From Granulicella aggregans (GTDB lineage Bacteria; Acidobacteriota; Terriglobia; Terriglobales; Acidobacteriaceae), in NCBI RefSeq assembly GCF_025685565.1, contig NZ_JAGSYE010000001.1, positions 2,108,001 to 2,172,000 on the forward strand: a stretch of 64,000 nucleotides of DNA, given 5' to 3'. Position 1 is the stretch's first letter; each line of letters starts with the position of its first letter. Shown piece after piece: positions 54,689 through 64,000 of this stretch. The notes under the pieces were generated by a model, which was given only the letters and a program-made list of their open reading frames with translations, searched no databases and was not told where the DNA came from. A program made the translations under genes and the position numbers.

Positions 54689-57600
54689 TCAGAAGCTGAC
54701 CTTGAAGGCGAACTGGATGTTGCGCGGCTCGCCCTGGCCAAGTCCCGGAGCCAACGACGAGTAACGGGTTGCGGAGAGCACACCGAAGCTCGAGCTGGTC
54801 AGTGTGCCGCTCGGATTTGCGAAGTTCGACTGGTTGGCGAAGTTGAAGACCTCTGCACGGAGTTCTGTGCTGATCCTCTCAGTAACAGGCGTCACCTTCA
54901 CGAACGACAGATCCACGTCGCCGAAGCCGGGTCCGATGATGCTGTCACGACGCTCGTTGCCGAATGTGCCCGAAGGCGCAGGGGTCCAGGCAGCTTTGTT
55001 CAGGTAAGAGTAAGTACGGCTCTTGGTCGTGGCGGTGGTGACCCGCGGAATGCGGGCCTTTACACCGGCGACGCGGTTGGGACGGTCGCGGCTCGCTTCG
55101 CCTGAGCCGCTGGTATTCGTTCCAGCCAGGATGTTCACCGGCGTACCACCGGCAAAGACAAAGAGTGCATTCATTTCGTAGCCCCGAGTCAGCCGAGGTG
55201 CGAAGTTGGTGAACTTCGGAATGGTGTAACGAGCGGAGCCGGTGAAGTTGTTGCGCACGTCGAAGGTCGACAGACCGTAGTCGCTCCGAAGATTGGTGCT
55301 GTCCTGCGGTGTGGTGGCGCTTGACGAATCATCAAGCGACCTCGACCAGGTGTAGTAGACCTTGGCTGAAAGTCCGTGCCACTGGGCCTGCACCAGCGAC
55401 ACCTGCAGCGAGTTGTAGTTTGAGTTTGCCCCGCTATTCACCTGATTGATGGCCGTCAGGTAGGGATACTGCGAAGCGAAGGGACGAACGCGAGCTGCTG
55501 CGTTGGTCGTGATGGGGTACTGATTCAGGTCCGCTACGTAGGCGAGGTGGCGTCCCACGCTGCCGGCATAGGTGACGGTCAGCAGCGTGTTCCTGGCGAG
55601 CTGCTGCTCGACGTTCAGGTTGTAGTTCTGCATGTAGGCAGCGCGGTAGTTCGGATTGATGGCCAGGATACCCAGCGAAGTGGTCGGCTGGCCGTTCGTG
55701 CCGAATTGCACGCCGCTCGGGAAGGTACTTTGGCCGAGCACAAATCCTGCTCCTCCATTCACCGTGATGGCAGCATTGGCATCGCCGGGGCTGCCGAAGA
55801 TACCGGCGCTGGCACCGTTGCCCACACTGTTGTAGACGAACTGGCCCACCGTCGGCTGATCGTAGAACCAGCCAAATCCTCCGCGAAGAACGGTAGTGGG
55901 CTCCTTGAACGGCGTGAAGGCGAAGCCGACACGCGGAGCAACATTGGTGAGATTCCGTTCGTAGAGCGGGGCTTTGAAGTAGCCGCGTGCGGGCGTGAAG
56001 TTGTAGATGGAGTTGCGATCATCGCTGACGGCACCTGGGTAGCTCCAGCGCACACCGTAGTTCAGGGTCAGACGCTTGTTCACCTTGAAGTCGTCGGCGG
56101 CAAAGACGTCAAAGGTGTTCACGATGTAGACGCGCTCCGGGTTATTGCGCAGGATGGTTGCGCCGGAAGCAGTATCTCTTGTAAGGCCAGCCACAAAGTC
56201 CGCAACCTGGACCCCCGTGGAGCACTGGTTGAGGCTTGTCTTGTCAGAGGTGATGGCTAGCCCAGCCGCCGTGCACTCCGCATCCGTTACGGGGTTCGCT
56301 CCGTTGTTGGTGTAGCGCGTGCCGTCAAAGTTAAACGTACCGCGACCATTGACGTAATACGCGACGTCCAGATTCGCGTGACGATACTCGCCGCCGAACT
56401 TGAGCTCGTGGCGGCCTAACGAATAGTGCAGCGTATCGTCGATGTGACCGGTGACGTCCTGGCGGCCAAGAGGCGGTGTTGCGCCCGTGTAATCGAATGA
56501 TCCGACGTAGAACTGAGGAGCGCCGGTAGCCAGCACCCCCGTAAGACCGAGATTCAGGCCGTCACCCTGCACGTTGAAGCTCTGGTTGCGGTCGTTGAAC
56601 TTTTGCAGGAAGGATTGCGCGGCAGCTGTGACCTGGTTGACGATCTTGCTGTTGAACGTGCTGGTCTGTGAGATCTGGAAGTTGTGGATGTGCATCGGTG
56701 CCGTCTCGAAGTAGTCGGCGAAGTGCGAGCCTACGTCCGCGGACTGCTTGCCTGTGGTGCCCAGGTAGTGTGCGGAGATGCTGTATTTGTCGTTGAAGTT
56801 GTGGTCGAGCTTGATGATGCCGTTGTAGCTGTTGTACGTATTCACGCCGTTCGACTGGTACTGGTTTACGTAGCCGGTGGACGCGCGCGACACCGCCGGA
56901 AACAGCAGGGTGTACATATTGAGCGCGACCTGATTCTGCGCGATACCGCGGCTTGCGAGCAGGCTCTTACCGGCTGCGATCCAGGTATCGTTCAGGACGG
57001 TATCCGCGAGGCTGTTATTCGCCTGCGCGATCTGCACTTCGCCAGCAAGGAAGAAGAACGTCTTGTCCTTGAAGATGGGACCACCCAGGGTGAAGCCACC
57101 CTGATGGTTCCGGATCTCCGGGATGCGGCTACCTACGGCTACGGACGGGCTGAGCCACGCGAAGAGTTCGTTCCGATCGAAGTAGAAGACGTCGCCGTGA
57201 AGGTGGTTGGTACCGGTGCGTAGCACCATGTTGCTGTTCGCTCCGCCGTTACGGCCCTGGTCTGCTTCTCCGGCTGCCTGCAGCGAGAATTGATCGATCG
57301 CTTCCACAGGAATAAGTCCGCCAGCGATACCAGCGATACCGCCCTGGTTCGAAGCCACCTGATTTGACCACGGATCGTTGTTGTCCGCGCCGTCGATCTG
57401 GTAGTTGATGCCTGCAGTACGCGAGCCGTTTACGGTGTTCTGGCCAAGATACGGGTTGATGCCAGGAGCAAGTTTCACCAACTGCATGAAGCTGCGGCCG
57501 TTGAGAGGGATCTGCTGCACCGATTTTTGATCGACGACGGAGACGAGCTGGCTATTGGTGGTGTCGAGCTGCACGCCCGATGCCTGCACGTCGACTACCG

Positions 57601-57958
57601 TGGCTTCGGAGCCAGCGGCAAGCTGGACCTTCTGGTCGCGAACCTTTGAGACTTCGATGACGATGTTATCGAGCGATTGGGCCGAGAATCCCGGAGCAGT
57701 GACAAGCAGCTTGTAGGTGCCCACAGGAAGTTCGGGAAAGCTGAAGTTTCCAGTCCCGTTGGTCTTGATGTCCGAGGCATCGTTCGTCGCCAGATTAGTC
57801 AACCGGACGGTCGCGTTGGGGATGGCTGCGTCGGAGGCGTCCACCACGGTGCCGGTGAGCGAACCTCGAAAGGTCTGTGCGCCTGCGGCCACAGACAAGA
57901 TCAAGACCGTAGTCATGGCCAAAAGAGACCTGATTGATGATCGAGAAGAAAATATCAT
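54689..57958 (-). CDS. Oar-like TonB-dependent receptor with carboxypeptidase-regulatory domain
   Basis: A 1089-residue receptor starting MIFSSRSSIRSLLAMTTVLIL, a signal peptide ending near GAQTFRG. The regulatory domain is GSLTGTVVDASDAAIPNATVRL ... GNFSFPELPVGTYKL, then a plug with QIPLNGRSFMQLVKLAPGIN and INYQIDGADNND, and a barrel that ends FAFKVSF. AGGAGG is ten bases before the ATG. Closest in plan to the other two receptors of the window, though not a recent copy. A terminator follows. The ligand is unknown; the redox group upstream may be co-regulated but is not clearly in the same operon (188-base gap). Confidence 0.92.
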   Translation of the reverse strand: MIFSSRSSIRSLLAMTTVLILSVAAGAQTFRGSLTGTVVDASDAAIPNATVRLTNLATNDASDIKTNGTGNFSFPELPVGTYKLLVTAPGFSAQSLDNIVIEVSKVRDQKVQLAAGSEATVVDVQASGVQLDTTNSQLVSVVDQKSVQQIPLNGRSFMQLVKLAPGINPYLGQNTVNGSRTAGINYQIDGADNNDPWSNQVASNQGGIAGIAGGLIPVEAIDQFSLQAAGEADQGRNGGANSNMVLRTGTNHLHGDVFYFDRNELFAWLSPSVAVGSRIPEIRNHQGGFTLGGPIFKDKTFFFLAGEVQIAQANNSLADTVLNDTWIAAGKSLLASRGIAQNQVALNMYTLLFPAVSRASTGYVNQYQSNGVNTYNSYNGIIKLDHNFNDKYSISAHYLGTTGKQSADVGSHFADYFETAPMHIHNFQISQTSTFNSKIVNQVTAAAQSFLQKFNDRNQSFNVQGDGLNLGLTGVLATGAPQFYVGSFDYTGATPPLGRQDVTGHIDDTLHYSLGRHELKFGGEYRHANLDVAYYVNGRGTFNFDGTRYTNNGANPVTDAECTAAGLAITSDKTSLNQCSTGVQVADFVAGLTRDTASGATILRNNPERVYIVNTFDVFAADDFKVNKRLTLNYGVRWSYPGAVSDDRNSIYNFTPARGYFKAPLYERNLTNVAPRVGFAFTPFKEPTTVLRGGFGWFYDQPTVGQFVYNSVGNGASAGIFGSPGDANAAITVNGGAGFVLGQSTFPSGVQFGTNGQPTTSLGILAINPNYRAAYMQNYNLNVEQQLARNTLLTVTYAGSVGRHLAYVADLNQYPITTNAAARVRPFASQYPYLTAINQVNSGANSNYNSLQVSLVQAQWHGLSAKVYYTWSRSLDDSSSATTPQDSTNLRSDYGLSTFDVRNNFTGSARYTIPKFTNFAPRLTRGYEMNALFVFAGGTPVNILAGTNTSGSGEASRDRPNRVAGVKARIPRVTTATTKSRTYSYLNKAAWTPAPSGTFGNERRDSIIGPGFGDVDLSFVKVTPVTERISTELRAEVFNFANQSNFANPSGTLTSSSFGVLSATRYSSLAPGLGQGEPRNIQFAFKVSF

Positions 57959-58146: not shown

Positions 58147-59532
58147 TTATTCGCCTGCCTTCGTGTGGACCACTTCTGCCGGAGTGGCCTGTTGGGTTGC
58201 GTTCTCAGCGAGCAGCTTCTCAATCGTGGCGGTGAACTCTGCCTTTAGCTGGTCGTTGAACTCTCCGCTGGCTGGAGATGCGAAGCCTGAGTGGACACCC
58301 TTCACCAGGCCATCGCGTCCGATGAAGAAGGTCGCCGGCCAGGTGTTCAGATTGACGGCTTGAGGGACTTTCTCCCACAACTCAGCAGGTGCGCCGGCGA
58401 TCAGATAGGTGTACTCAACGCCATACTGCTTTACGAAAGCATGTTCACGGTTGAGTTTGCCCTGTTCCTCGGGCTCTTCGAAGTCGAGAGCGACGATGGC
58501 GAGACCCTTGTCGCGATACTTCTTATCGAGCTGAACGAGATACTGTGCCTCATCGTGGCAGTTGGGGCACCAGGTGCCGGTCACGATGGCGAGCACAACC
58601 TTGCCCTTGAAGCGAGGATCATCGTTCGATACGAGCTTTCCGTTGACGTCGGGGAAGTTGAAGGTGAACTTCTCGTTGACGTCACGAACGGTGGTGTGGG
58701 TTGCGTAGTTCTCTGGTTCAGGCAGACCCTTGGCGCGGGCTACTTCCGGACGATATGCAATCAGCTTCGTCGTATAACGGCTGTCGGATGGCTCCTCGTT
58801 GTACTGCTTGGTGGCCGTTGTAGTGGTTGTCGCTGGGGCTGCTGCTGCCTTGGGGCGAACGGCGTTCTGAAGTATCTGTAGCGTTCCGTCGGGCAAAGCC
58901 GACACCTCGATAACACCGGGGCGGGAGCCATCATAGTGACTTAGGAGCCACTTGCCGTCCTTGTATGTTCCGCTGTAGGCACCAGTATCCCCGTCGACGC
59001 GAAGTATAGAGGCCGCAACGTCTGCTCCTCGCTGTTCGACGATGAAGCGAAACGCCTTCTCTCCCTTGGACGTGGGACTCTCGAGAGGGACCTCCCATGA
59101 GCCAGATATCCTCGGAACATCAGTCGCTGCTGTCGTTGCCTCAACGTGACGTATGGCCTGGAAACCATAGCCGCCGGTCGCTCCGCGCGACTGGGTGACG
59201 ACGTCACCGACGAGTTGACCGTCCTTGAGAGTAGCCGTGATGGTGGTCAGGTAGTGTTCGACGTTGAGCGTTAGTTTGCCATCGGCGAAGGTCGCGCTGG
59301 TGGTGCCGTCGTAAGGCAAGAATCCGTCATAGAAGGTACCCTTCAACGACGGTGCCGAGCCTGAGATATCCAGGCGAAACGGAATCACGTTGCCATGGTT
59401 GATCAGGCTGGCATCCCAACGGCCGTCAATAGCGGCTGGGCCTGTCTGGTTCTGGGCGGGGGCCTGGGATATGGTGGCTCCGATGCTTCCGGCTATCAAG
59501 AGGATATGTGCTGCCCGCAAAGCTGTTCTCAT
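58147..59532 (-). CDS. Exported TlpA-like thioredoxin with N-terminal beta repeats
   Basis: A 461-residue exported protein. Signal peptide to about residue 27 (ISQAPAQ), then two similar beta-rich segments (about 35-110, IDGRWDASL ..., and 142-225, ISGSWEVPL ...), an Ala/Thr-rich linker, and a redoxin domain from about 285 with the active site WCPNC (about 321-325) and cis-Pro in NTWPATFFIGRDG. TlpA/ResA-type proteins keep cysteines reduced, for example in cytochrome c maturation. It starts 35 bases after the monoheme protein gene, so the two share a transcript. ATG at 59532 with AAAGGA before it. Confidence 0.9.
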   Translation of the reverse strand: MRTALRAAHILLIAGSIGATISQAPAQNQTGPAAIDGRWDASLINHGNVIPFRLDISGSAPSLKGTFYDGFLPYDGTTSATFADGKLTLNVEHYLTTITATLKDGQLVGDVVTQSRGATGGYGFQAIRHVEATTAATDVPRISGSWEVPLESPTSKGEKAFRFIVEQRGADVAASILRVDGDTGAYSGTYKDGKWLLSHYDGSRPGVIEVSALPDGTLQILQNAVRPKAAAAPATTTTTATKQYNEEPSDSRYTTKLIAYRPEVARAKGLPEPENYATHTTVRDVNEKFTFNFPDVNGKLVSNDDPRFKGKVVLAIVTGTWCPNCHDEAQYLVQLDKKYRDKGLAIVALDFEEPEEQGKLNREHAFVKQYGVEYTYLIAGAPAELWEKVPQAVNLNTWPATFFIGRDGLVKGVHSGFASPASGEFNDQLKAEFTATIEKLLAENATQQATPAEVVHTKAGE

Positions 59533-59567
59533 CGTTCTTTTCCTTTCTGTGAGCCTGCGTGAACTGC

Positions 59568-61043
59568 TTACCCCTGAGGAACAGGGACGGAGCGCCTGCC
59601 AGCTATATGCAGGCGGTTGGACTTTGCATAGGTACTCCACTCTTCGGGGAGGCCCTGCTTGGTTGCGAGTAAAATTTCGAGGATCGCCTGGCGGTCGGCT
59701 GCGGAGATCCTGGCGAAGTCGGGGCTATGGTCTTCGCCAGTCAAGACCTGTAGAAGGCGGTGGTAAATGTACAGGCGAGCCGGGTCGGGAAGGGAATCGA
59801 ACGACCTGGTATAGATGAGATAACTGCACGGATACTTGAACGTTCTCGTATGTAGGTCGAAGTCGCGAAGAGAGCGGCCTTTGGCATCGCGCACTCCGCG
59901 GGCGGTGAACTTCTTCGCGAAGGAAGAGGATCCTTCTATTTTGGCGGAGGGAGGAAAGGGCGCTTCATTCGCGAATAGCAGATAGCGCAGCAATTGCTCC
60001 GCAGGCCGCTCATACTGCTGGCGGGCGCTGTCGCCTAGAGGCGTGTCCGTGGGGAGTCCTTCGCTCTTGATGCGATTGGTCTGAGCATAAAGAGCGAGGC
60101 GGGTCTTGTAGTTCGTCAGCGTGATGAGATTGTGCATCTGGGTCTGATGAGCCAGCACAAGGTGCGCGACGACATCACTGTCGGGTGCAAGGTAGGACGA
60201 CTTATCGAACGGCTGAGAGAGGGAGACGATGTGCATCGTGTCCGTCTGATCGGCCGGTCCATTCAGGTCCTTGTCGTCAACGGCTCCATTGCCAAGGTGT
60301 GTCCGGCCGCCGAGCTTGCCGGTAACGTACCAGCCACCCCAGCGCTCGTCGAAGGGTGTCTCCTGATCGATGATGAAGGACTTCGTTCCTGGAGCCTGGG
60401 TGCCTGTCGTCGTGGGGTAGATGGAGCGAAGCAGAACGCCAGGTACCCCGCGGGTTCCGGCTGCAATGTGGCATTGCGTGCAGTCGAGTTCGGCGCGCTG
60501 GAAGGTGGGGTGATCGACTTTGTGTTCGTCGAGAAGATAGAAGATGGCTCCCTGTTGCGGGTCAAAGGAGATAATCTCGATCGCCTTTCCATCATGTACG
60601 GAGCCGACATAAACGTCGTCGCTGAAGTAGAGCGCGCGCGGATGGTCTGGGGAGATCTTCTTATATTGAAAGCTGGTCTTAGAAAAGACGAGAGTCTGAG
60701 AGTTGACGGGAACGTTAAGCAGCTTCAATACCGACTTCAAGTACCCGTGTCCTGGCTCGTACTTTAGGCTACTGGTGCCTGCCGTGAGCTGGCGTTCGAG
60801 CTGCGCTACAGGGTCGCTCAGGTCGTCTGACCGATAATTGATCGGGGCTTCGCTGAACGGAACATATCCCTGATTGCGAACCGCAATTTGAGCGTACACA
60901 TGCAGGTTGGACCAACCTGCGAGCGCGAACGTGCAGACCAATAAACCCTGGATAATGTATTGGCTTCTTTGCGAAGGCGAGAGATCACGCTGGACTGCAG
61001 TTTGTGTTCTCCGGAAGGTTAATAAGCGCTTCAGTATTCTCAC
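59568..61043 (-). CDS. Exported monoheme c-type cytochrome-like protein
   Basis: A 491-residue protein with one N-terminal hydrophobic segment (about 29-50, a signal anchor or signal peptide) and a single CTQCH heme-binding motif near the middle (ELDCTQCHIAAGTRG). The rest has no cysteine-rich motif, and I recognise no named family, though large proteins with one CxxCH are common in acidobacteria. A methionine or histidine could be the sixth ligand; several His lie in the following 100 residues. Upstream is a 367-base gap with a terminator, so it begins its own unit with the TlpA-like gene. It may be an oxidoreductase or a heme sensor. Confidence 0.75.
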   Translation of the reverse strand: MRILKRLLTFRRTQTAVQRDLSPSQRSQYIIQGLLVCTFALAGWSNLHVYAQIAVRNQGYVPFSEAPINYRSDDLSDPVAQLERQLTAGTSSLKYEPGHGYLKSVLKLLNVPVNSQTLVFSKTSFQYKKISPDHPRALYFSDDVYVGSVHDGKAIEIISFDPQQGAIFYLLDEHKVDHPTFQRAELDCTQCHIAAGTRGVPGVLLRSIYPTTTGTQAPGTKSFIIDQETPFDERWGGWYVTGKLGGRTHLGNGAVDDKDLNGPADQTDTMHIVSLSQPFDKSSYLAPDSDVVAHLVLAHQTQMHNLITLTNYKTRLALYAQTNRIKSEGLPTDTPLGDSARQQYERPAEQLLRYLLFANEAPFPPSAKIEGSSSFAKKFTARGVRDAKGRSLRDFDLHTRTFKYPCSYLIYTRSFDSLPDPARLYIYHRLLQVLTGEDHSPDFARISAADRQAILEILLATKQGLPEEWSTYAKSNRLHIAGRRSVPVPQG

Positions 61044-61410
61044 GAAAATTATCCTTAGGCTCGTTGAAAACGCACCGCCATGAATGCGGGACGGCGCATT
61101 TCTATTCGCAAATGCCGGAGGATAGTTTTACGGTGAGCACGCATCAAAGAGGCATGCAGCAAGTGAAAAACCCGCTCCAGCATGGCTGGCGAGCGGGTTT
61201 CGATATCACGAAGGATCCAAGAGGATCAACTTCTAGTTATCGAAAATAGCTACCCATGCGCCAGCGAATTTGCATGGCGAACAACAAAGTGTCATGGATG
61301 GCATGCGCATAAATTGAAAATACAGATGACTAGACTTACTGTCAATCCGAGTGTTGCCGAAAATGAGGCGGATGCAGAAGCAAAAGTATCGATTCAATTT
61401 CTCGGCCTTG
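61044..61410. other. Intergenic region with a terminator
   Basis: Between the monoheme gene and the broken DsbD-like gene. It contains the hairpin at 61168-61200. No other gene or motif was seen; presumably it carries the promoter of the monoheme-TlpA unit. Confidence 0.5.
61168..61200 (-). terminator. Terminator of the LanC-CHRD-cytochrome unit
   Basis: Stem AAACCCGCTC / GAGCGGGTTT (10 bp) with a 13-base loop that has its own short stem (CAG/CTG). On the minus strand it is followed by TTTTTC. Confidence 0.8.
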
Positions 61411-61910
61411 TCACCGCGACGTGATGACGCTTACCGGAATACGAAGGTGGATCGTCTTAGGTGGCATGCAGGTACGGTCGCTACAGGATTGATAGCGAAT
61501 GCTAACGGGGATTTCACCGACACCGGAGGCGCGTCGCTTTTGAGCCGTACCGGAATATTGAGGAAGAATTCTGTCTTGTAGACAGTGGTTTCGAGATTAA
61601 AGCTTGTATCGCGAAGCTTGAGTGGATCTGATTCGTCTATCTTCCCGTTCAGGGACGCGATGAGGTTTTACTCCAACGAAGCTTTCAGAGGAGTCGGGCC
61701 ACCTTCGAGCTGAGCGCTGCCATAGACATGCCAGCCTTCTTTGATATGAGCAGCTATCCGCAAGGCGCTGGTGGTGCCGCGATGAACGGCATGACTGGAA
61801 CCGTCTTCGACGCGCCATTGAACAGGATCCGTGGGCAACTGGCTATGGCCAGGTACGCAACTGGGCAGGAGGATGGCGGACATCAAGGCTGATGCAGAGA
61901 GTAAGCGCAT
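61411..61910 (-). pseudogene. DsbD N-terminal-domain-like protein, disrupted by a stop and a frameshift
   Basis: The ATG at 61910 (GGGGAG upstream) opens a signal peptide and then V-x-W ... HIKEGWHVYGSAQLEGGPTPLKASLE, as in the periplasmic N-terminal domain of DsbD, but a TAA at 61668-61670 stops it after 80 codons. The same frame then continues with meaningful sequence (SLNGKIDESDPLKLRD, NLETTVYKTEFFLNIPVRL). Near 61520 the homology moves to another frame: GEIPVSIRYQSCSDRTCMPP and IHLRIPVSV to a TGA at 61411. The two cysteines of YQSCSDRTC match the thiol pair of the family. So the gene is whole in length but carries two inactivating changes. It could be a fresh pseudogene or contain sequencing errors. 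Confidence 0.85.
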
Positions 61911-61944
61911 GGCGGCGGCTCCCCTTTGAATGAGATAGACGAGG

Positions 61945-62394
61945 CTATGGTTTGGGCTCGAAAGTTGGCGGACTCGTATGACCCTGGTGGCAATTGCCGC
62001 AAGTCAAGGGCTCCGCATAACGCCTGTCACCTAGCTGCGCGAGATAGCGGTTGTTGATATCGTTCGTCATGCGGATCATCAGGCGAGCGGTATCTTTCAT
62101 GGGGTTAGCATCCGAAGCGAAATCCATCTTCTTTGTCTGGGTGTTTTCTTCGTGGCAGTAACCGCACGGAGCACCGATCGCCTTGGTGTAGCTCTGCATC
62201 AAGATACGAAGGTCCTCGGCGGAGATATCTTTCGAAAGCGCTTTAAGGTTTACGGGCTTGGCATTAGCCCCGGAGATGGCCACCGGCGCGGGTGGTGAAG
62301 ACGCCTGCTTTTCAATGGTTTGGGAAGTTGCGCTTTGAATCAGGCCAGCCGCTGTACAAAGTAGCAGCAAGGCCTTTATGTACTGCGTCTTCAT
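61945..62394 (-). CDS. Diheme c-type cytochrome, small, exported
   Basis: A 149-residue protein with a signal peptide (LLLLCTAAGLIQSATSQ). Two heme sites: CGYCH and CGNCH, separated by about 50 residues, with a DFASDANPMKDTARLMIRM segment between, as in the small cytochromes related to the photosynthetic reaction-centre cytochrome subunit that acidobacteria have in number. Likely a periplasmic electron carrier. It is 34 bases ahead of the DsbD-like pseudogene and 89 bases after the CHRD gene, all leftward, so an operon is likely. Confidence 0.88.
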   Translation of the reverse strand: MKTQYIKALLLLCTAAGLIQSATSQTIEKQASSPPAPVAISGANAKPVNLKALSKDISAEDLRILMQSYTKAIGAPCGYCHEENTQTKKMDFASDANPMKDTARLMIRMTNDINNRYLAQLGDRRYAEPLTCGNCHQGHTSPPTFEPKP

Positions 62395-62483
62395 TGCCTT
62401 CCTTTCAATCAGGGATGTGGTGGTTGTCGGAGCGGGCGCACACGTAGGACAAGTCAGTTCGTGCGCGCCCGCGCCGGTTTGGA

Positions 62484-62927
62484 CTACTCCGACTTCACAA
62501 TTTGGCCACGAACTTCACCACCCGGATTGGCGCTGGTGTGCAGGTTGAAGTACCACTTGCCATCCAGCAGGTCCTTTGCCTGTTCCGGTGTGATGGTGGC
62601 TTTACCGTCGAGCGGGCTGGCGATAGGCGTTACCTTAATGGGAAGCTGTGGTTTGGCGTTCGCGCCTTCCGCGGCCGGTCCATGGAAGTGCGCGGCAACG
62701 GCAGGCCCGGTCAGGCCACTGAACTCAATGTGGTACTTGAATTCGTTGGTATCTGTGTCGAGAGTGCCAGTCAACGTTCCCGTTCCCGCGACGTCCTTGG
62801 CAGGCACTTCTGAAGCGCCCTTTATGTCAGCCTTGAGATTCACAATGGCGGCATGTGCTGCGAGAGAGGCAAAGGTCAGTGCGGATGCAGCGACCAACGA
62901 GCGAAACGTACTTTGTAGATTGATCAA
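62484..62927 (-). CDS. CHRD domain protein, exported
   Basis: A 147-residue protein: signal peptide to about residue 27 (ALTFASLAAHA), then a single CHRD domain with the usual segments: IKGASEVPAKDVAGTGTLTGTLD, HIEFSGLTGPAVAAHFHGPA, and LLDGKWYFNLHTSANPGGEVRGQI. The conserved His residues of AHFHGP and LHT are there. CHRD proteins occur in extracellular matrices and in redox or metal-related settings; function is not known. It lies 49 bases after the LanC-like gene. Confidence 0.92.
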   Translation of the reverse strand: MINLQSTFRSLVAASALTFASLAAHAAIVNLKADIKGASEVPAKDVAGTGTLTGTLDTDTNEFKYHIEFSGLTGPAVAAHFHGPAAEGANAKPQLPIKVTPIASPLDGKATITPEQAKDLLDGKWYFNLHTSANPGGEVRGQIVKSE

Positions 62928-62976
62928 GTGTTCCTCCTGGTAAATAACGCCAAAGCACTTCTAAGAAAAATTGTTG

Positions 62977-64000
62977 TTACGGCTCAAAGACGACTGATGG
63001 GGCTGTCTGTTCGTATGCCACCGAAGCCGCCGTCGACTCCGAGCGACTCGTTGGGAAGGGATTGTCTGGAAATCCGATGGTCTGATATTTCCCCTTTTGA
63101 GCAAGCGAGGCCTGGATCAATGCTGCACCGACTCCTGCCGCCCCGATCGAGTATCCGGTCTCTGCCGAGACATCAGCGGGCTTCACGCGTGTCCATGCCT
63201 GATACCAGCGCGCTCCTTTACCGTCGAAGTTCGTCTGATGGCTCAGCGTGTGTTCCGCAAGCTTATTGGCATAGGCATAGTACTCAGGCTTGCCAGTAGC
63301 AGCCCAAAGACCAAGAAAGAAACTCGTGAGACCAGCCGTGCCGCAGCATTGGCACACGACATTCCAGAGTCCGGGTGTTTGATTCTCCGGAACCTCGCTT
63401 TCGATCACGCCGCGAGCCAGGCGCTCTGTCCAGTCCAGGTATGACGGATCCTCTGTCACCTTGTATAGCTGGTAGAAGAGCCGTGCCGTGCCCGCCGGAC
63501 CGTGGCAGAATCCGAGGTAGTAGACCTCCCGGAGATCCGGGTAGCGATAGGAGATGAGAGCTCCTGTACCTTTTTGCGTGGCGATGTTTTGTAGGTGAAG
63601 TGCACCTTGCGTTGCGGCGTAAAGAAAGCGCTTGTCGCTGGTCTTCTCATAGAGCCGAGCGAGCACATAGGCGACGCCTGCGGTTCCCATTTCGAAGTTC
63701 GGGAAGTACGTTTCGTCGGGAAGGCCTAGCGCGGACGATGGCACTCCCTTCCAACTCAGCCCACCGCCGGGATAGGGTCGCCCCGCCGACAGCAGGCGCT
63801 CACCAGCCCGCGTGGCTGCCCTCGCATAATGCTCATCCTGCAGGGCCTCGCTGGCGTAGAGAAGGTACAGGATGACGCTGCCATCGCCGATGATGCCAGG
63901 CGCGGAGGACCAGGCAAGGCCGTTCGGAATAGTCTTTGCGGAGCCGACGATGTACTCGGTCGCGGCGATGGCAGCCTGTTTGTAATGCACGATGCTCGTA
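62977..64000 (-). CDS. LanC-like protein, N-terminal end outside window
   Basis: At least 340 residues, with the frame open to the window edge; a GTG at 63988-63990 is the first possible start in view, but it is probably internal. The chain is an alpha/alpha toroid with repeats: APGIIGDGSVIL, FEMGTAGVAYVLARLYE, LGFCHGPAGTARLFYQLYK, VVCQCCGTAGLTSFFLGLW and SIGAAGVGAALI. The GFCHG and CQCCG segments supply Cys/His for the zinc site of LanC-type lanthionine cyclases, in partly altered form. No precursor peptide or LanB/LanM gene is in view. The setting, with CHRD and cytochrome genes, suggests an exported or envelope role. The missing N-terminus would tell whether a signal peptide exists. Confidence 0.85.
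   Translation of the reverse strand, partial: TSIVHYKQAAIAATEYIVGSAKTIPNGLAWSSAPGIIGDGSVILYLLYASEALQDEHYARAATRAGERLLSAGRPYPGGGLSWKGVPSSALGLPDETYFPNFEMGTAGVAYVLARLYEKTSDKRFLYAATQGALHLQNIATQKGTGALISYRYPDLREVYYLGFCHGPAGTARLFYQLYKVTEDPSYLDWTERLARGVIESEVPENQTPGLWNVVCQCCGTAGLTSFFLGLWAATGKPEYYAYANKLAEHTLSHQTNFDGKGARWYQAWTRVKPADVSAETGYSIGAAGVGAALIQASLAQKGKYQTIGFPDNPFPTSRSESTAASVAYEQTAPSVVFEP

Follow-up and report, generated by a model that had tools for sequence, protein, structure and literature searches.

A LanC-like protein with a Tat-type signal beside an exported heme/thiol gene cassette in Granulicella aggregans and related Acidobacteriaceae

At the right end of a 64,000-nucleotide stretch of the Granulicella aggregans genome (the window; bases 2108001-2172000 of contig 1) lies a group of six genes that joins a LanC-like protein to heme and thiol proteins. 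The genes were located by open reading frame (ORF) listing combined with a Pfam search, and all those named in an earlier note on this DNA were found where it had placed them, on the minus strand and in the order LanC-CHRD-cyt-DsbD_N-mono-TlpA. The LanC-like gene occupies 62977..64000 inside the window (PF05147, E 2.6e-23 on this part) and as a whole extends from 62977 to about 64488 (L002:6977-8488), encoding 503 amino acids (E 6.1e-24 on the full protein). It is followed by a gene with a TTG start for a cysteine-free CHRD-domain protein (62484..62927; PF07452, E 3.6e-28), and then by a gene for an exported diheme c-type cytochrome with two CxxCH motifs (61945..62394; NF033196, E 1.2e-30), a non-photosynthetic relative of the reaction-centre cytochrome c. 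Next come a broken DsbD_N-like remnant (about 61420..61910), an intrinsic-terminator-like hairpin with a U tract on the same strand (61166..61200), and genes for a monoheme protein with one CxxCH (59568..61043) and a TlpA/ResA-like thioredoxin with a WCPNC motif and an extra N-terminal part (58147..59532; AhpC-TSA, E 1e-11). Judged by eye, the products other than the LanC-like protein carry a Sec-type signal (the CHRD and TlpA-like proteins among them) or an anchor, and the N-terminus of the monoheme protein could be either.

LanC enzymes act in the cytosol. The earlier note had seen signals on all products except the LanC-like protein; this held for the other products, but extension of the sequence past position 64000, which the note had proposed, completed the LanC-like gene and revealed a start with a twin-arginine-type signal. 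The N-terminus of the 503-residue protein reads MHQSRSKLSRRSFLATGAITAAIAP and is of the twin-arginine type by motif; the signal itself is LSRRSFLATGAITAAIAP, with the twin-arginine translocation (Tat) motif SRRSFL and a hydrophobic stretch. Since this start outside the window carries a Tat-type signal, all six products look exported. A [ST]RRxFL motif is present in the window protein and in seven of the 63 LanC loci obtained by a genome scan, all seven of them acidobacterial, and TatC was found in nine of nine genomes searched. The curated Tat profiles stayed below cut-off or unlisted in all six clade members scanned: at E 0.1, neither PF10518 nor TIGR01409 was listed for the window copy, and PF10518 was likewise unlisted for L015; for L014 it was unlisted at E 0.05, and in L009, L011 and L044 it fell under its cut-off. 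By its signal motif, the LanC-like protein is a putative Tat-exported protein.

The assignment to the LanC type was supported by both sequence and structure prediction. The whole window copy scored 84.7 bits against PF05147 (LANC_like; cut-off 23.2), and its AlphaFold2 model, with a predicted local distance difference test score (pLDDT) of 89.9, best matched the structures of CuvL (Z 36.2), LanCL2 (33.5) and NisC (32.4), the first non-LanC fold being a GH47 mannosidase (Z 22.2). These data indicate that the protein is of LanC type by sequence and predicted fold. GH127 enzymes have zinc ligands that form a cysteine zinc site, and the protein could instead be a carbohydrate-active enzyme or metallo-hydrolase on an (alpha/alpha) barrel, for example a GH127-like one with such a site, working with sulfatases and Oar transporters. 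Three sulfatase genes do lie upstream, and PF07944 exceeded its 24.9-bit cut-off in the window copy (27.5), L009 (27.6), L014 (26.5) and L044 (36.1); in the window protein the cut-off was passed by the whole copy without any single stretch passing alone, and the in-window fragment did not pass. However, PF07944 remained under the cut-off in L015 (24.6) and L011 (19.1), LANC_like outscored it by a wide margin in every one of the six copies (76.4 to 86.1 bits; 84.7 versus 27.5 for the window copy), and LanC enzymes stood well above glycosidases among the structural matches, although the 50 listed structures include no GH127 and are therefore no test of its fold. We consider this explanation highly unlikely.

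The protein has four cysteines in all (328, 379, 381 and 382), of which C328, C381 and C382 form the predicted zinc triad, and H329 corresponds in the alignment to the second histidine of LanCL1. In the profile alignment, FshG falls over AAHG of LanCL1 (His219), GwCHG over HWCHG (Cys276 and His277), and CCG over CHG of LanCL2. This numbering of LanCL1 (His219, Cys276, His277) is that of a published study, which gives the acid histidine as His219 in LanCL1 and His212 in NisC and reports its mutation to be deleterious in six listed LanC-type enzymes (PMC9934072). Across a 52-row alignment, C328, C381 and H329 each occur in 49 rows, and position 382 is Cys in 46 rows and His in 3. Position 267 is His in 41 rows; the window protein has M267 in place of this acid His and, at position 266, a Glu instead of the Ser of most relatives. 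None of the 11 rows with E266 has His at 267, and the rows combining E266 with the lack of His267 cluster (10/10) in a 50-row tree with support of 99/97, a bootstrap that is not fully settled. Compared with the 41 His-type rows, this clade has Gly (7/8 rows) or Ser (1/8) instead of D198, and Tyr314 and Phe327 in all 8 rows. C328, H329, C381 and C382 are retained in all 8 other full clade rows. The clade has lost the acid histidine of LanCL1 together with a conserved acidic residue and has gained an invariant Glu.

The scan behind the 63 loci started from one pattern spanning residues 326-334 and a second near the N-terminus, and rows were picked by a motif filter, so the conservation of the zinc motif is partly by construction. 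A pattern-free profile search gave the same picture, as 12 of 12 strong matches outside the family carry FSHG, [WF]CHG and CCG; the weaker out-of-family matches were left out of the study. The 52-row alignment omits 21 of the 63 scan loci (duplicates, gaps, partial or remote sequences) as well as six strong profile-search matches (L083-L086, L088 and L091) that the motif filter had missed and that were later shown to have the same motifs. The tree was built without L042 and L057, and the clade comparison without the partial row L042 and a Terriglobus pair.

Terriglobus-type LanC-like proteins (loci L011, L012, L016, L019 and L024) fall inside the Glu266 clade of the window protein and have lost the ligands. 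Ser, His and Ser replace the three Cys ligand positions, and in the aligned rows of L011, L012 and L024 (L012 and L024 appear to be one contig) GFSQG and QHSG stand instead of G[WF]CHG and CCG; despite this loss, the copies retain the twin-arginine motif. CHRD adjoins LanC in these loci, visible only in part in L016, and is its only cassette neighbour; the mono-TlpA pair lies elsewhere in the genome in the Terriglobus-type genomes G128 and G148. Together with the loss of acid His267 and Asp198 throughout the clade, the alteration of all three ligand positions in this branch would fit a LanC-fold protein that has lost its thioether activity and, once exported, serves for binding or as a scaffold. 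Against this stand the conserved C328, H329, C381 and C382 of the other full clade rows, as well as class III cyclases, which function without zinc according to PMC10604976, so that ligand loss alone is no proof of inactivity. A binding or scaffold role for the window clade seems to us distinctly unlikely.

The LANC_like domain and cyclase fold could also suggest the cyclase of an ordinary lanthipeptide cluster. The export signal and the missing acid His speak against it, as does the genomic setting. Nine of nine genomes contain a single LANC_like match, which in the source genome is the only LanC-domain protein, so no LanM, LanKC or LanL synthetase is seen. LanB dehydratase gave no match in the nine genomes, with a control that was also silent, which leaves this negative without weight, and LanM and class V dehydratases were not searched directly. 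The conserved small Cys-containing precursor that the earlier note had proposed to look for did not turn up in seven loci (within 5 kb) or immediately upstream in ten. Comparison of the 451 small ORFs of the seven loci produced only short low-score pairs (best E 0.005), and the small ORFs just upstream of LanC in the ten loci showed no common sequence, although an unconserved or distant precursor would escape such comparisons. Several loci do have small ORFs with two or three cysteines just before LanC, such as one of 63 codons in Bryocella. With a sole LanC-domain protein per genome and no conserved precursor, an ordinary lanthipeptide cluster is unlikely, and that the protein serves as the cyclase of one appears extremely improbable. 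The LanC-like protein very probably lies outside ordinary lanthipeptide biosynthesis.

Comparison among relatives divides the six genes into two units, the LanC-like gene and a cassette of CHRD, diheme cytochrome, DsbD_N, monoheme and TlpA-like genes. A family sample of 200 Acidobacteriaceae genomes includes 10 with the monoheme gene and 6 with a LanC relative, one of the latter being of the His type. Twelve monoheme loci were read, comprising the window, nine from other sample genomes, Granulicella sp. L60 and Bryocella elongata; genes in the relatives came from a home-made ORF choice, with six genes checked by tblastn, and the pairs L014/L142 and L044/L143 each represent a single locus in two parts. 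The TlpA-like gene comes after the monoheme gene in all 12 loci, and the CHRD-cytochrome-DsbD_N trio accompanies this pair on the same strand in eight, in Granulicella L60 within about 8 kb; among the four loci lacking the trio, L141 spans only 8.9 kb. The co-location of the cassette genes is thus more than chance.

LanC stands directly before CHRD in three genomes (the source genome, Granulicella sp. L60 and Bryocella elongata; counted by genomes, not genera), and in two of them all six genes are adjacent. The earlier note had proposed to look for the same gene order in other acidobacteria, and LanC was indeed found beside heme/thiol genes in the latter two genomes, albeit in permuted arrangements: the order is mono-TlpA-LanC-CHRD-cyt-DsbD_N in Bryocella, while in Granulicella L60 LanC-CHRD-cyt-DsbD_N is followed by two Cys/Met pyridoxal-phosphate (PLP) enzymes, a deformylase-like gene (by eye), an Oar-like gene and mono-TlpA, with a gamma-glutamyltranspeptidase gene before LanC. 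That note had regarded its reading as open to refutation by a LanC-like gene that lacked a signal sequence and had relatives away from the cytochrome genes; both observations came out the other way, with a Tat-type signal present and LanC beside heme/thiol genes in two more genomes.

A question raised by these data is whether LanC belongs functionally with the cassette or is a mobile single gene with a small-molecule substrate of its own, adjoining a cassette with which it shares no function. The patchy occurrence of LanC in the family fits the latter, and so do five other Acidobacteriaceae genomes (loci L133-L137) that have the full five-gene cassette with no LanC in the locus and no LanC match in the genome at E 1e-10; the relay therefore does not need LanC. 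Conversely, no mono match was found in two LanC genomes, Acidobacterium sp. S8 (G070) and the 77% complete G142. The wider family of stand-alone LanC-like proteins, which spans Planctomycetota, Acidobacteriota, Bacteroidota, Pseudomonadota, Lachnospiraceae and others, offers no common pathway either: among 102 neighbouring proteins (of 128 selected), PALP and SDR enzymes were the commonest families with 5 each and the only shared neighbours, CHRD occurred twice, and none of the wider-family LanC loci read has the cassette adjoining. On the other side are the direct LanC-CHRD contact, kept in three genomes although the cassette order is permuted among them, and the adjacency of CHRD and LanC in the Terriglobus-type loci too. 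Furthermore, mono is present in three of the five genomes with a window-type LanC versus 10/200 overall (hypergeometric 0.0009; 0.010 without the source genome and 0.009 by genus); these statistics take no account of relatedness, and two of the three genomes in common belong to the same genus. On balance, we regard it as unlikely that the two are neighbours with no function in common.

Within the cassette, the window copy of DsbD_N is interrupted by a stop codon in frame (61668-61670) and by a frameshift lying somewhere from about 61512 to about 61539; the orthologue of Granulicella sp. L60 (locus L014) is intact and matches PF11412 (E 6.6e-14). The CxxxxC pair, which all five DsbD_N orthologues examined possess, is still readable in the window copy in the other frame. 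Downstream of the remnant, the hairpin region (61155-61215) has a folding energy of -25.5 kcal/mol (z -3.66), equalled by 2 of 200 shuffles, and a simple terminator scan did not include the hairpin among its calls. Rfam gave no match at gathering scores, and the two sigma-70-like promoters found, versus 3.1 expected, were given no weight. The TlpA-like protein has a thioredoxin-type domain with CxxC and ResA-type matches, and did not reach the curated NCBIfam cut-offs for ResA and TlpA. Pfam and NCBIfam at E 0.1 gave no family for the monoheme protein; its structure model is of low quality (pLDDT 51) and its best PDB match (E 0.32) is not convincing. Outside the family, 28 genomes have a match to it, and one locus read in each of 12 of them, with about 5.5 kb on each side, contained no TlpA, CHRD or cytochrome gene. 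One such homologue (L180:6619-10300) adjoins a gene that by eye resembles a quinol nitric oxide reductase, and this may hint at what the monoheme protein does.

The surroundings of the cassette also recur in part. The next gene downstream encodes an Oar-like TonB-dependent outer-membrane protein (54689..57958, minus strand), whose membership in the cassette is uncertain; Oar-like genes are close to the cassette in several relatives as well. The three sulfatase genes upstream of the LanC-like gene (L002:9312-13977, past the right end of the window) have twin-arginine-like starts, and a sulfatase gene also lies ahead of the cassette in L133. Granulicella sp. L60 has a second pair of TlpA-like and DsbD_N genes (L156:8733-12072), near a gene resembling a Cys/Met PLP enzyme.

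PMC9934072 describes LanC enzymes as forming thioethers, both in the synthesis of lanthipeptides and in the repair of dehydroamino acids in eukaryotes. The window protein resembles the eukaryotic LanC-like glutathione-adding enzymes LanCL1 and LanCL2 in fold (Z about 32-33.5) and in C328, C381 and H329, which correspond to the zinc ligands Cys276 and Cys322 and the enolate-stabilising His277. In contrast, its third ligand position holds Cys382 rather than His323, Met267 (beside Glu266) replaces His219, and a Tat-type signal is present. The top structural match, CuvL, belongs to the lanthipeptide cyclase domains with a three-Cys zinc triad, termed CCC in PMC11251773, and has QCCG in the alignment; unlike CuvL-type cyclases, the window protein is stand-alone, carries an export signal, and has neither a dehydratase, kinase or lyase domain nor the acid His. 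With the wider stand-alone family it shares G[WF]CHGPxG and CCG, and many of those proteins start with an apparent signal (by eye); the difference lies at positions 266-267, which are S/A-H in 41 of 52 rows, with Asp198 in 40 of the 41 His-type rows. The thiol members are comparable to relays of the DsbD N-terminal domain and TlpA-ResA, given the PF11412 and ResA-type matches and the CxxxxC and WCPNC motifs, whereas here DsbD_N is stand-alone and accompanied by CHRD and a pair of heme proteins, with LanC joining them in three genomes.

Some wider-family loci have features of their own. In Lachnospiraceae (Butyrivibrio and others; L038, L039, L040 and L043), a cysteine-synthase-like gene directly precedes LanC in 4/4 loci, and the LanC-like protein has no evident signal; in L025, a D-cysteine-desulfhydrase-like gene (by eye) follows LanC. 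The sulfur-compound genes near LanC in Lachnospiraceae, L025 and Granulicella L60 are no more than suggestive of a link to sulfur compounds. In two Planctomycetota (L047:3454-6825 and L050:1739-5197), the LanC domain sits in a frame of more than 1100 codons, perhaps fused to other domains, and a CCH-type branch with longer C-terminal parts includes Bacteroidales, Gemmatimonadota and a Thermoplasmatales archaeon (L059, L064 and L065).

Starting from the observed gene order, signal motifs, conservation, predicted LanC fold, Cys-Cys-Cys positions, and loss of the acid with gain of Glu, we tentatively favour, as a reading that falls somewhat short of probable, a heme/thiol cassette that has recruited a LanC-fold enzyme, exported by Tat and having a zinc-thiolate site and altered acid/base chemistry, for relay-supported thiol chemistry in the periplasm. 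A LanC-fold protein would have been recruited directly before the CHRD gene of the exported cassette. Folding and zinc uptake would take place in the cytoplasm, which would keep the four cysteines of the protein (the three ligands among them) reduced, and the folded protein would then be exported by Tat. In the periplasm, zinc may activate a thiol carried by a small molecule or peptide, so that a thioether is formed or cleaved or the thiol is transferred in some other way; Glu266 or water would stand in for the lost acid, and the DsbD_N/TlpA/cytochrome relay may set the thiol redox state or accept electrons. The link between the relay and the LanC chemistry is the weakest step.

The earlier note had proposed a thiol or thioether modification process in the periplasm, and this idea is only partly sustained. 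The export signal, the predicted zinc-thiolate site and the thiol-redox neighbours agree with it, and a thioether-forming reaction by the LanC-like protein is possible. Several observations weigh against this idea, against the explanation favoured here, or against both: complete cassettes occur in genomes where no LanC match was found, and two LanC genomes gave no mono match; Terriglobus-type copies have altered ligands and only CHRD beside them; the acid His is absent; the curated Tat profiles do not confirm the signal; the co-occurrence statistics disregard relatedness; and the broken DsbD_N of the source genome counts against a tight pathway.

The individual components (LanC fold, CCC triads, DsbD_N, TlpA proteins) belong to known kinds, and literature searches returned no paper describing either this cassette or a LanC-like enzyme that is exported. 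As far as searched, what is new is the combination, namely LanC-type proteins that bear a Tat-type signal, have their acid residue exchanged and lie in a heme/thiol cassette. More broadly, it is conceivable, if somewhat unlikely, that several phyla export LanC-type zinc enzymes for extracytoplasmic thioether or thiol-transfer chemistry, and that the Acidobacteriaceae branch replaced the Asp/His acid pair with Glu and became coupled to a heme/disulfide relay. If the favoured explanation is true, the existence of an exported branch that kept its zinc-thiolate site but swapped its acid would mean that the LanC fold has been reused for periplasmic sulfur chemistry. The His-acid, Glu-replacement and Cys-less Terriglobus types form a natural mutant series for the role of the LanC acid, and the analysis puts a name to a cassette of exported heme proteins in a common soil family.

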